NCBI RefSeq assembly: GCF_019216885.1
Contig: NZ_JAAQRC020000001.1
Location: 4,064,001 to 4,128,000, forward strand
DNA from: Methylobacterium sp. SyP6R
Lineage (GTDB): Bacteria; Pseudomonadota; Alphaproteobacteria; Rhizobiales; Beijerinckiaceae
DNA length: 64,000 bases
Direction: 5' to 3'
Part shown: in pieces, positions 44,620 to 48,738 of the stretch
How positions within the stretch are numbered: the first letter of the stretch is position 1
Layout of the letters: each line of letters begins with the position of its first letter
Position numbers and translations under genes: made by a program
The notes under the pieces: generated by a model
What the model saw: the letters and a program-made list of their open reading frames with translations, nothing else
Databases searched by the model: none
What the model was told of the DNA's origin: nothing

Positions 44620-44853
44620 ATGTCCTTCCGCCTCGTCACCCTCGCGGCCCTCGGCGCCCTCGTCACGGTTCCGGCCCTTGCCGAGGACGTGACGGTGATC
44701 CGCCGCGATTCCGCGCCGGTGGAGCGCAGCACCGTGATCGAGAAGCGCTCGGTCGAGTCCACCGGCTCCGTCGGCGGCTGCGAGACCAAGACCGTGAAGA
44801 AGACCAACGAGTACGGCGACAGCAAGACCGTGCACAGCGAGCGCTGCGACTGA
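44620..44853 (+). CDS. Small secreted protein
   Basis: 77 residues. Signal peptide MSFRLVTLAALGALVTVPAL with a cut after LA before EDVTV. The mature part is about 56 residues, charged, with two Cys (GGCETKTVKKTNEYGD and HSERCD) that could pair. No named family. CTGGAG stands upstream of the ATG. A terminator hairpin shared with the convergent gene follows. Confidence 0.7.
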   Translation: MSFRLVTLAALGALVTVPALAEDVTVIRRDSAPVERSTVIEKRSVESTGSVGGCETKTVKKTNEYGDSKTVHSERCD

Positions 44854-44902: not shown

Positions 44903-45310
44903 TTACTTCAGCAGGCGCGCCAGGGCCTTGCCGGCCGGGGTGCGCATTTCCTTGGCGTCGAGGGTGCCGTCGTTGTCCGGGTCGGCCAGCTTGAAGCGGG
45001 CCTCGACCAGGGCGAGGTACTCGTTCTTGTCCAGGGTGCCGTCATTGTCCGGATCGGCCTGCTTCATGTCCTTGCGGCTGACGCGGCCCTGCAGCTCCTT
45101 GGTGTCGAGGGTGCCGTCGGCATCCTTCTCGAGCTTGTCGAACACCGCGCCGGCGGCGGCCTTGGCCTCGGCGAGGTCGATCGTGCCGTCCGAATCGGTG
45201 TCGACGGCCGCGATGGTGCGGTCGGTCTTCGGCTTGGCCTCGGCCGAGACGGGCAGGGCGAGCGGCGCGGCCAGGAGGGCGGCGAGCAGAAGCGTCCGGT
45301 TGAGGGTCAT
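44903..45310 (-). CDS. Lanmodulin-like four-EF-hand periplasmic protein
   Basis: 135 residues, with a signal peptide (LLLAALLAAPLALPVSAEA). Four 12-residue EF loops follow: residues 37-48 DTDSDGTIDLAE, 61-72 EKDADGTLDTKE, 86-97 DPDNDGTLDKNE and 110-121 DPDNDGTLDAKE. Spacing, length and linkers (AVFDKL, KELQGRVS, the C-terminal PAGKAL) resemble lanmodulin, the lanthanide-binding protein of Methylobacterium. Lanmodulin has Pro at loop position 2 in all four hands; here only hands 3 and 4 keep it, and hand 2 begins with Glu. CAGGAG precedes the ATG. Metal preference is unknown. Confidence 0.85.
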   Translation of the reverse strand: MTLNRTLLLAALLAAPLALPVSAEAKPKTDRTIAAVDTDSDGTIDLAEAKAAAGAVFDKLEKDADGTLDTKELQGRVSRKDMKQADPDNDGTLDKNEYLALVEARFKLADPDNDGTLDAKEMRTPAGKALARLLK

Positions 45311-45437: not shown

Positions 45438-46760
45438 TCAGGCCTGCATCTTTTCGGCCAGGATCTTGTCGACCCGGCGTCCGTCCATGTCGACGACCTC
45501 GAAGCGCCAGCCGTTGCGCTCGAACCCGTCGCCGGCGGTGGGAATGCGGCCGAGCTGGAAGATCACGAAGCCGGCGAGCGTCGAGAAGTCGTCGCTGTCG
45601 GGCCGCTCGGTGAGGCCGAGGCGCTCGAAGGCCTCGACCGCCGGCATCATGCCGTCGATGAGCAGCGAGCCGTCCTGGCGCTCGACCACCATCGGCTCGT
45701 CGTCGTCGGTCTCCGGGATGTCGCCGGCGATCGCCTCGAGGAGGTCGGTCTGGGTGACGATGCCCTCGAGGTCGCCGTACTCGTCGACGACGATCGCCAT
45801 CCGGACGGGCTTGGCCTTGAAGGTCTCGAGCACCCGCAGGATCGGCATGCCCTCGTGGACGACGATCGGCTCGCGAATGATCGCGTCCAGCGTGATCGGC
45901 GCCCCGTCGAGGAGCTGGTTGAGAACGTCCTGCTTGCGCAGCACGCCGACGATCTCGTGGATCTCGCCCCGGCTCGCCACCAGCTGCTCGTGGCGGCAGG
46001 CGCGGATCGTCTCCAGCACCGCCTCGCGCGGGTCCTCGACGTCGATCCAGTCGACCTCGTGGCGCGGGGTCATGATGTCCCGCACCCGGCGCTCGCCGAT
46101 GCCGAAGATGCGCTGCACCGCCGCCTGCTGCGATTCCTGGATCAGGCCGGCCTCCTGGCTCGCCGCCACCAGCAGCGACAACTCGGCGGTAGAGTGCAGC
46201 GAGCCCTCGCCGGAGCCCGGCTGCAGCCCGCACAGACGCAGCACGCCGTTGCCGAGCCCGTTGAGGAACGAGATCGCCGGGCGGAAGACGAGCAGGAACA
46301 CCCGCAGCGGCCGCACGATGGCGAGCGCCGTGCGCTCGCTGCGCTGGAGCGCCAGGCTCTTAGGGGCCAGCTCGCCCAGCACGATGTGCAGCGAGGTGAT
46401 GACCACGAAGGAGAACACCACCGCGATGGCGTGGGCGCCGGCGGTGCTCGTGCCCTGCGGCAGGAAGGCGAGCAGCGGCTCGATCAGATGGGCCAGGGCG
46501 GGCTCGCCGACCCAGCCCAGCGCCAGCGACGAGATGGTGATGCCGAGCTGCGTGGCCGCCAGATGAGAATCCAGGCTGTCGACCGCCCGCTGCAGGGCAC
46601 CCGCATTGGCCCGCTTCTCGGCTACGAGCTCCTGGACCCGGCTGCGCCGGACCGCCACCAGGGCGAACTCGGCCGCGACGAAGAACCCGTTCGCGAAGAC
46701 CAGGAACACGATGGCGAACAGGCCGAGGCCCGTTCCCCAGGGACTGTCGGAGAAAATCAC
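45438..46760 (-). CDS. CNNM/CorC-type membrane protein with CBS domains
   Basis: 440 residues. An N-terminal CNNM-type transmembrane domain (about 1-190) begins AIVFLVFANGFFVAAEFALV and contains QLGITISSLALGWVGEPALA and LGELAPKSLALQRSE. Two CBS domains (about 215-340, MTPRHEVDWIDVED) and a C-terminal CorC_HlyC domain (SLLIDGMMPAVEAFERLGL) follow. Relatives take part in magnesium or cobalt homeostasis; the name hemolysin is historical. It is transcribed toward the lanmodulin-like gene, 127 bp away, with the hairpin GGGCGCCT...GAGGCGCCC (45338-45366) between. Confidence 0.9.
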   Translation of the reverse strand: MIFSDSPWGTGLGLFAIVFLVFANGFFVAAEFALVAVRRSRVQELVAEKRANAGALQRAVDSLDSHLAATQLGITISSLALGWVGEPALAHLIEPLLAFLPQGTSTAGAHAIAVVFSFVVITSLHIVLGELAPKSLALQRSERTALAIVRPLRVFLLVFRPAISFLNGLGNGVLRLCGLQPGSGEGSLHSTAELSLLVAASQEAGLIQESQQAAVQRIFGIGERRVRDIMTPRHEVDWIDVEDPREAVLETIRACRHEQLVASRGEIHEIVGVLRKQDVLNQLLDGAPITLDAIIREPIVVHEGMPILRVLETFKAKPVRMAIVVDEYGDLEGIVTQTDLLEAIAGDIPETDDDEPMVVERQDGSLLIDGMMPAVEAFERLGLTERPDSDDFSTLAGFVIFQLGRIPTAGDGFERNGWRFEVVDMDGRRVDKILAEKMQA

Positions 46761-47136: not shown

Positions 47137-48738
47137 ATGGCGAGCGACCTGTCCCGCATCTCCCGCGCGCTCCTCTCCGTCTCGGACAAGACCGGGCTGG
47201 TCGAGTTCGCCCGTGCGCTCGCCGCCCGCGGCGTCACGCTGGTCTCCACCGGCGGCACCCACCGGGCCCTCACCGATGCCGGGCTGACCGTCACGGAAGT
47301 CTCCGACCTGACCGGCTTCCCGGAGATGATGGACGGGCGGGTCAAGACCCTGCATCCGGGCGTGCATGGCGGGCTGCTCGCGGTCCGCGACAACCCGGAG
47401 CACCAGGCCGCCATGCTGGCCCACGGCATCGCGGCGATCGATCTCCTCGTCGTCAACCTCTATCCCTTCGAGGCGACGTTGGCCGCGGGCAAGCCTGCTT
47501 CCGAGTGCATCGAGAACATCGACATCGGCGGCCCGGCGATGATCCGCGCGGCGGCGAAGAACCACAAGGACGTCGCGGTCGTGGTCGACGTAGCGGATTA
47601 CGCCGCGGTGCTCGCCGACCTCGACGCCCATGACGGCGCGGTCACGTTCGCGACCCGCCGGCGCCTCGCCCAGAAGGCCTATGCGCGCACCGCCTCCTAC
47701 GACGCCGCGATCTCGACCTGGCTCGCCGGCGAGATCGCGGCCGCGCCGGAGGCCCAGACCTTCCGGGCGCTGGGCGGCACGCTGGCGCAAGGCCTGCGCT
47801 ACGGCGAGAATCCGCACATGAAGGCCGCGTTCTACCGCACCGCCGGCGCCCCGCGCCCGGGCGTGGCGACCGCGCGCCAGCTCCAGGGCAAGGAACTCTC
47901 CTACAACAACATCAACGACACCGATGCCGCCTTCGAGGCGGTGAGCGAGTTCGATCCCACCCGGACCGCCGCGGTGGTCATCGTCAAGCACGCCAATCCC
48001 TGCGGCGTCGCGGAAGGCGCCGACCTGATCGAGGCCTACGAGCGGGCGCTTCGCTGCGATCCGGTCTCGGCCTTCGGCGGCATCGTCGCGCTCAACCGCA
48101 CGCTGGACGCGGAAGCCGCGAAGAAGATCGTCGAGGTCTTCACCGAGGTGATCATCGCGCCCGACGCCACCGAGGAGGCGGTCGCGATCGTCGCCGCCAA
48201 GAAGAACCTGCGCCTCCTCACCACCGGCGGCGTCGCCGATCCCCGTAGCCCCGGCCAGGCCTGGCGCACGGTGGCCGGCGGCTTCCTGGTGCAGGACCGC
48301 GACAACGCCGTCGTCGACGACATGCCGCTCAAGGTCGTCACCAAGCGCGCGCCGACCGAGGCCGAATTGTCGGATTTGCGCTTCGCCTTCCGGGTCGCCA
48401 AGCACGTGAAGTCGAACGCCATCGTCTATGCCAAGGACGGCGCCACGGTCGGCATCGGCGCCGGGCAGATGTCGCGGGTCGATTCCTCGCGCATCGCCGC
48501 CTGGAAGGCGGCGGAAGCCGCCAAGGCCGCCGGCCTGCCCGAGAGCCTCGCCCGCGGGGCGGTGGTGGCCTCCGACGCGTTCTTCCCCTTCGCCGACGGC
48601 CTCTTGGCGGCGGCCGAGGCGGGCGCTACGGCGGTGATCCAGCCCGGCGGCTCGATGCGCGACGACGACGTGATCCGTGCCGCCGACGAGGCGGGCTTGG
48701 CCATGGTGCTGACCGGCCACCGCCACTTCCGGCACTGA
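47137..48738 (+). CDS. purH: Bifunctional AICAR transformylase/IMP cyclohydrolase
   Basis: PurH carries out the last two steps of IMP synthesis. 533 residues: the N-terminal cyclohydrolase ([47 protein letters not shown]) and the C-terminal transformylase ([28 protein letters not shown], the Lys-His pair in [14 protein letters not shown] and [16 protein letters not shown]). The ATG at 47137 follows a GTGTCATC context. The C-terminus RHFRH is normal. A duplicated hairpin follows the stop. Confidence 0.97.

Follow-up and report, generated by a model that had tools for sequence, protein, structure and literature searches.

The lanmodulin of Methylorubrum extorquens AM1 (Mex-LanM; PDB 6mi5 and 8fns) is commonly treated as the type lanmodulin. 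All four of its EF loops carry proline at position 2, with aspartate at position 1 of loop 2 and asparagine at position 1 of loop 4. Lanmodulins, the study of which is motivated by rare-earth separation, are characterised as proteins of fewer than 200 residues with four EF hands, a spacing of 12–13 residues, and proline at position 2 of at least one loop (PMC10232371). Hans-LanM of Hansschlegelia quercus (PDB 8dq2), which is reported to dimerise with light lanthanides, has asparagine at position 1 and glutamate at position 9 of its loops 1 to 3 (PMC10232371).

A lanmodulin with another set of loops was described from M. aquaticum 22A (Maq22A_c02050; PMC9260416). In place of the position 2 proline, its loop 1 has threonine and its loop 2 lysine, and its possession of two of the four prolines is restated in PMC12603986. 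Its gene was reported to be induced 10.3-fold by lanthanum (by qPCR), and the protein to be periplasmic and to become more compact with lanthanum; with calcium, the His-tagged protein showed a slight shift, from 28.1 to 25.1 kDa (PMC9260416). It held 3.65 La per protein at 1.7 mM La and 43 µM protein (PMC9260416), and because of this large excess of lanthanum the figure gives a capacity and not an affinity. A strain with the gene deleted kept its growth on methanol with altered lanthanum handling, seen as lanthanum deposition, aggregation and membrane effects (PMC9260416). In the published account, the gene lies among genes for purine biosynthesis, a hemolysin, a hypothetical protein, an adenylate cyclase and MucR, a neighbourhood also present in related strains, and in strain AM1 lanM is part of the lut cluster (PMC9260416).

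The window, that is, the whole stretch of 64,000 nucleotides analysed here from Methylobacterium sp. SyP6R, carries an open reading frame for 135 amino acids that runs from ATG to stop on the minus strand (positions 44903–45310). The plus-strand frame across the same positions gives a different translation. We call the product, a lanmodulin precursor, window LanM. Its N-terminus, MTLNRTLLLAALLAAPLALPVSAEA, reads by eye as a likely signal peptide of about residues 1–25 (45236–45310, minus strand). The first 30 residues have low pLDDT in the structure model described below, and in 22A LanM cleavage was predicted at E23 or K25 (PMC9260416). Four EF loops of 12 residues each begin at residues 37, 61, 86 and 110 and are separated by linkers of 12, 13 and 12 residues. 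By loop alignment, and all on the minus strand, they are loop 1, DTDSDGTIDLAE (45167–45202), with threonine at position 2; loop 2, EKDADGTLDTKE (45095–45130), with glutamate at position 1 and lysine at position 2; loop 3, DPDNDGTLDKNE (45020–45055); and loop 4, DPDNDGTLDAKE (44948–44983), with aspartate at position 1 where Mex-LanM has asparagine. Position 1 is thus D, E, D and D in loops 1 to 4, and position 2 is T, K, P and P. Aspartate occupies position 9 in all four. The earlier note had placed a gene here without giving a strand, and had described four closely set EF loops in 135 residues, with threonine in loop 1, a Glu-Lys start of loop 2 and proline in loops 3 and 4. The gene is real and each of these details was correct.

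The protein family could be assigned by several searches, with scores well above what chance would give. Pfam EF-hand_1 matched four stretches of the protein (E = 3.6e-19), and the NCBIfam equivalog model for lanmodulin, NF053806, matched residues 7–135 with 176.9 bits against a cut-off of 135 (E = 1.8e-52). In a sequence search of the PDB, the top four matches were two entries of Mex-LanM (6mi5, E = 8.4e-40), one lanthanum-bound protein of Ancylobacter and Hans-LanM. All four ranked above the calmodulins, the best of which had E = 9.3e-07. An AlphaFold model made from a 47-row alignment (mean pLDDT 84.4) superposed on neodymium-bound Mex-LanM (8fns) with an rmsd of 1.0 Å and a TM score of 0.94 by target over 103 columns, at 68% identity, so that the predicted structure has the three-helix-bundle fold of lanmodulins. 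Only four matches in the fold search fell below E = 0.001 and all four were lanmodulins; chains of the calmodulin type came at E = 0.009 or worse.

The protein also has the general features of lanmodulins: 135 residues, four EF loops, a spacing of 12, 13 and 12 residues, and proline at position 2 of loops 3 and 4. Passages of PMC12828617 and PMC11845868 restate these features and bring nothing contrary to this identity. The four prolines of the Mex type are not all present, as position 2 reads T, K, P, P. The spacing of about 25 residues and the fold of calmodulin are likewise absent, given the linkers of 12–13 residues and the lanmodulin fold match. Mex-LanM and window LanM have in common the predicted fold, the loop spacing and aspartate at position 9 of every loop, with 66–68% identity in structural alignments; they differ in position 2 of loops 1 and 2 and in position 1 of loops 2 and 4. 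The likeness to Hans-LanM is more distant (TM 0.87 by target, 34% identity). The compact four-loop layout is common to both, and the Asn1 and Glu9 of loops 1 to 3 of Hans-LanM are absent from window LanM.

The relationships were analysed with a rapidly built maximum-likelihood tree (154 rows, 104 columns), for which positions 1 and 2 of every loop were masked. Support was low overall (81 of 151 inner branches were below 80). Window LanM nevertheless fell within a clade of 17 rows with SH-aLRT 95, and all 17 rows carry T-K-P-P at position 2 of the four loops. On this weakly resolved tree, proline at loop 1 changes five times and is absent from the three betaproteobacterial outgroup rows, from which we infer that proline at loop 1 is derived.

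These results bear on whether the protein might be a calcium-binding EF-hand protein that merely looks like a lanmodulin and has no lanthanide function. The D-T start of loop 1 and the E-K start of loop 2 do resemble calmodulin, and many source names among the matches listed are generic EF-hand or calcium-binding names. Such a protein would hardly be expected to score above the lanmodulin cut-off, to have the 12–13 residue spacing, to find lanmodulins as its best fold matches and to sit among lanmodulins in the tree; its 22A relative, moreover, is described as lanthanum-induced and lanthanum-binding (PMC9260416). We therefore reject this explanation as scarcely credible. The "lanmodulin-like" of the earlier note was firmly right, and the tree nests the protein among lanmodulins; its alternative of a calcium relative was not supported, with the calmodulins scoring far below.

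The closest described system is 22A LanM. It is described as 134 amino acids long, against 135 for window LanM, and as having the same threonine in loop 1 and lysine in loop 2 at position 2 (PMC9260416). The orthologue in the type strain, M. aquaticum DSM 16371 (locus L010), is 93% identical to window LanM. It differs from it at position 1 of loop 4, which is asparagine in the type strain and aspartate in window LanM; the 3.65 La per protein of 22A LanM can therefore not be attributed to an aspartate there. We are highly confident that the window protein is a lanmodulin of a Methylobacterium near M. aquaticum, very probably orthologous to 22A LanM.

The gene neighbourhood is the one published for 22A (PMC9260416). 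On one side of lanM lie a gene for a TlyC/CorC-type protein with CNNM, CBS and CorC_HlyC domains (45438–46760, minus strand) and purH, with AICARFT/IMPCHase (47137–48738, plus strand). On the other side lie a gene for an exported-looking protein of 77 amino acids with no Pfam match (44620–44853, plus strand), a gene for a class III nucleotide cyclase (PF00211; 43256–44446, minus strand) and a gene for a MucR-family regulator (PF05443; 42070–42531, minus strand). The N-terminal half of the cyclase appears by eye to be membrane-spanning. Locus comparison identified all five as conserved neighbours. The order purH-tlyC-lanM-77 aa-cyclase-MucR was found in 10 named Methylobacterium loci (L008–L016 and L032). 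The 77-residue protein was present in nine of these, at 89–96% identity, and the tenth (L010) ends at a contig edge. The M. nonmethylotrophicum locus (L012) encodes the same LanM type as the window. Despite the species name, a strain of M. nonmethylotrophicum is reported to be a methylotroph that depends on lanthanides (PMC8561711).

For a count across the genus, we used the 134 loci with wide flanks among the 149 rows of the best-scoring set other than the window; 15 of the first 30 loci, with flanks of about 1.5 kb, were excluded. At least two of the neighbours were found in 16 of the 134 loci, all 16 with T-K-P-P loops, and all six genes sought were found in 10 of the 16. These 16 loci and the window make up exactly the 17-row clade of the tree. 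The 16 genus loci and the 10 named loci overlap in their genomes.

The window lanM, in contrast to that of AM1, sits outside any lut cluster. In another locus (L191), a TonB receptor gene adjoins lanM; we take its product, which carried no such name, to be LutH from its position. With this receptor as query, the host genome had one match, only 38% identical, and the open reading frames around this match, read by eye, included no recognisable lut genes. The result agrees with the published distribution, in which only clade B and two strains of clade A have LutH of more than 50% identity (PMC8561711). In 23 of the 134 wide-flank loci, lanM was adjoined by a gene for a TonB receptor akin to this presumed LutH. 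Proline at loop 1 was present in all 23 of these and in 12 of the other 111 (raw counts). On the tree, however, there are at most four well-supported independent pairs, with which a sign test cannot attain significance. Because there are so few independent pairs, and because of shared descent, we do not claim a link between proline at loop 1 and the receptor.

Are the loops of window LanM unusual? A search of 111 Methylobacterium genomes with the lanmodulin model gave a match above the cut-off in 110, and we aligned the best-scoring 150 rows, the window included; further, lower-scoring matches exist. Among these best 150 rows, position 2 of loop 1 was threonine in 105 and proline in 44. In loop 2, 107 of the 150 had glutamate at position 1 and 77 had lysine at position 2. 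The commonest pattern at position 2 of the four loops was T-K-P-P, that of window LanM (65 of 150), and four prolines were found in 37. At position 1 of loop 4, aspartate was present in 144 of the 150, and the asparagine of Mex-LanM was rarer. The earlier note had called loops 1 and 2 non-canonical, which is apt against Mex-LanM and its four-proline relatives and does not describe the genus, where threonine in loop 1 (105 of the best 150 rows) and glutamate in loop 2 (107) are usual. Its statement that all four loops of lanmodulin carry proline is true of Mex-LanM and of the 37 rows, and not of lanmodulins in general. The counts suggest that T-K-P-P with aspartate at position 1 of loop 4 is the usual form in the genus, and that the Mex-LanM form is less common. 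They caution against the use of Mex-LanM as the standard and supply ready-made natural variants. Specialists will not be surprised, as the loop difference of 22A LanM has been in print since 2022; nor do we claim that no such genus-wide count has been published, as natural lanmodulins may have been screened on a larger scale.

Window LanM is thus an unexceptional lanmodulin that belongs to a known subtype. By analogy with 22A LanM, it would be exported to the periplasm and would become more compact on binding about four lanthanide ions; its gene would be induced by lanthanide, and the protein may help to manage lanthanide in the periplasm of an XoxF-using cell. As for selectivity, changing proline to alanine in Mex-LanM is reported to lower the selectivity over calcium and to keep lanthanide affinity (PMC12603986). 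Threonine and lysine in place of proline in loops 1 and 2 would, on this comparison, probably keep high lanthanide affinity with calcium rejection weaker than in Mex-LanM, and a changed lanthanide/calcium selectivity of window LanM is plausible. In loop 4 of Mex-LanM, the change N108D is reported to raise the gadolinium per protein from about 2.2 to 3.8 (PMC11561317). As window LanM has the same aspartate naturally, its loop 4 probably binds lanthanides better than that of Mex-LanM.

A stronger form of the selectivity change would be a drift of loops 1 and 2 towards calcium, which would leave two calcium or mixed sites and two lanthanide sites. The proline-to-alanine result points in this direction, lysine and threonine are among the common position 2 residues of calmodulin-type loops (PMC12603986), and 22A LanM does shift slightly with calcium. 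That shift was seen at 3.4 mM CaCl2, the only calcium concentration given for the His-tagged protein in that part of the description, and was smaller than the shift with lanthanum (PMC9260416). All four loops of the window protein keep the position 9 aspartate of Mex-LanM, and 22A LanM holds close to four lanthanum ions, although at excess lanthanum. We consider a drift of this kind unlikely. A similarly doubtful idea, which we put forward only tentatively, is that this clade has a LanM of natural mixed-loop, four-ion design, with two proline-free loops, one of them starting with Glu-Lys, and a fully acidic loop 4. Compared with Mex-LanM, it would have a different preference along the lanthanide series and would reject calcium less strongly, and it would serve lanthanide storage or export rather than LutH-side delivery. 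On this view, the four-proline form would have arisen later, as a specialisation of the lineage in which lanM is linked to lutH.

The earlier note had also raised the presence of a second, canonical lanM and of xoxF genes elsewhere in the genome. No second lanM was found in the host genome, either in a search to E = 10 or with the lanmodulin model. Genes of the xoxF type are present, and so are genes of the mxaF type. Five PQQ-dependent alcohol dehydrogenases scored above the family cut-off. In such enzymes, aspartate in the motif WDYDG marks the lanthanide type and alanine in WDYAG the calcium type. One of the five has WDYDG and is followed downstream by a gene for a c-type cytochrome, and we read the pair as xoxF1 and xoxG. 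A second one also carries WDYDG and shares 73% identity with the xoxF1 candidate. A dehydrogenase with WDYAG is encoded on contig C2 (742,825 bases) amid an mxa-like gene cluster; here we use the names mxaF and mxa on the assumption that motif and gene order, as generally known, identify them. This cluster may represent plasmid-borne genes of a calcium methanol dehydrogenase. The Asp301/Ala301 distinction in PMC8561711 is consistent with the lanthanide and calcium dehydrogenase types. The mxaF-like cluster (L203; contig C2 of the host genome G000, 104000–123000) is separate from the WDYDG genes, which are on the 6.4-Mb contig.

We searched 110 of the 111 genomes for XoxF (G050 was left out), and 105 of them had a match to the host XoxF at E = 1e-250. 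The XoxF of G031 is 97% identical to that of the host. No match at this threshold was found in G005, G022, G033, G067 and G100. Three of these, G022, G033 and G100, had a full-length hit to the family model with 785–802 bits (778 for the host XoxF), and G067 had only partial hits below the cut-off. G005 had four family-model hits above the cut-off and two more members in overlapping pieces. The split genes in G005, home of L140, which is among the closest LanM rows, are at C1:5642342-5643960 and C1:221215-222503. As each is in two overlapping pieces, these genes look broken or mis-assembled. No clear case of LanM without XoxF emerged among the five genomes.

One genome of the 111, G040, had no LanM match at E = 0.001, and at E = 10 only a single one (E = 0.279, 30% identity). 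Two of its PQQ alcohol dehydrogenases score above the family cut-off, and one of these shares 86% identity with the host XoxF. A genome with an XoxF-like gene and without LanM, together with the dispensability of 22A lanM for growth on methanol, implies that LanM is not essential. These same two facts, the one missing LanM in 111 genomes and the methanol growth of the 22A deletion (PMC9260416), might be explained by lanM being a relic that is still encoded and no longer active. A relic would hardly be kept in 110 of 111 genomes with its loops, spacing and neighbours conserved across the clade, and the consequences of the deletion for lanthanum deposition, aggregation and the membrane in 22A (PMC9260416) also count against it; we judge a relic highly improbable.

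A lanmodulin of M. fujisawaense (P0030) carries the name "histidine kinase" in the public record. The same misnaming was remarked for the 22A gene (PMC9260416).
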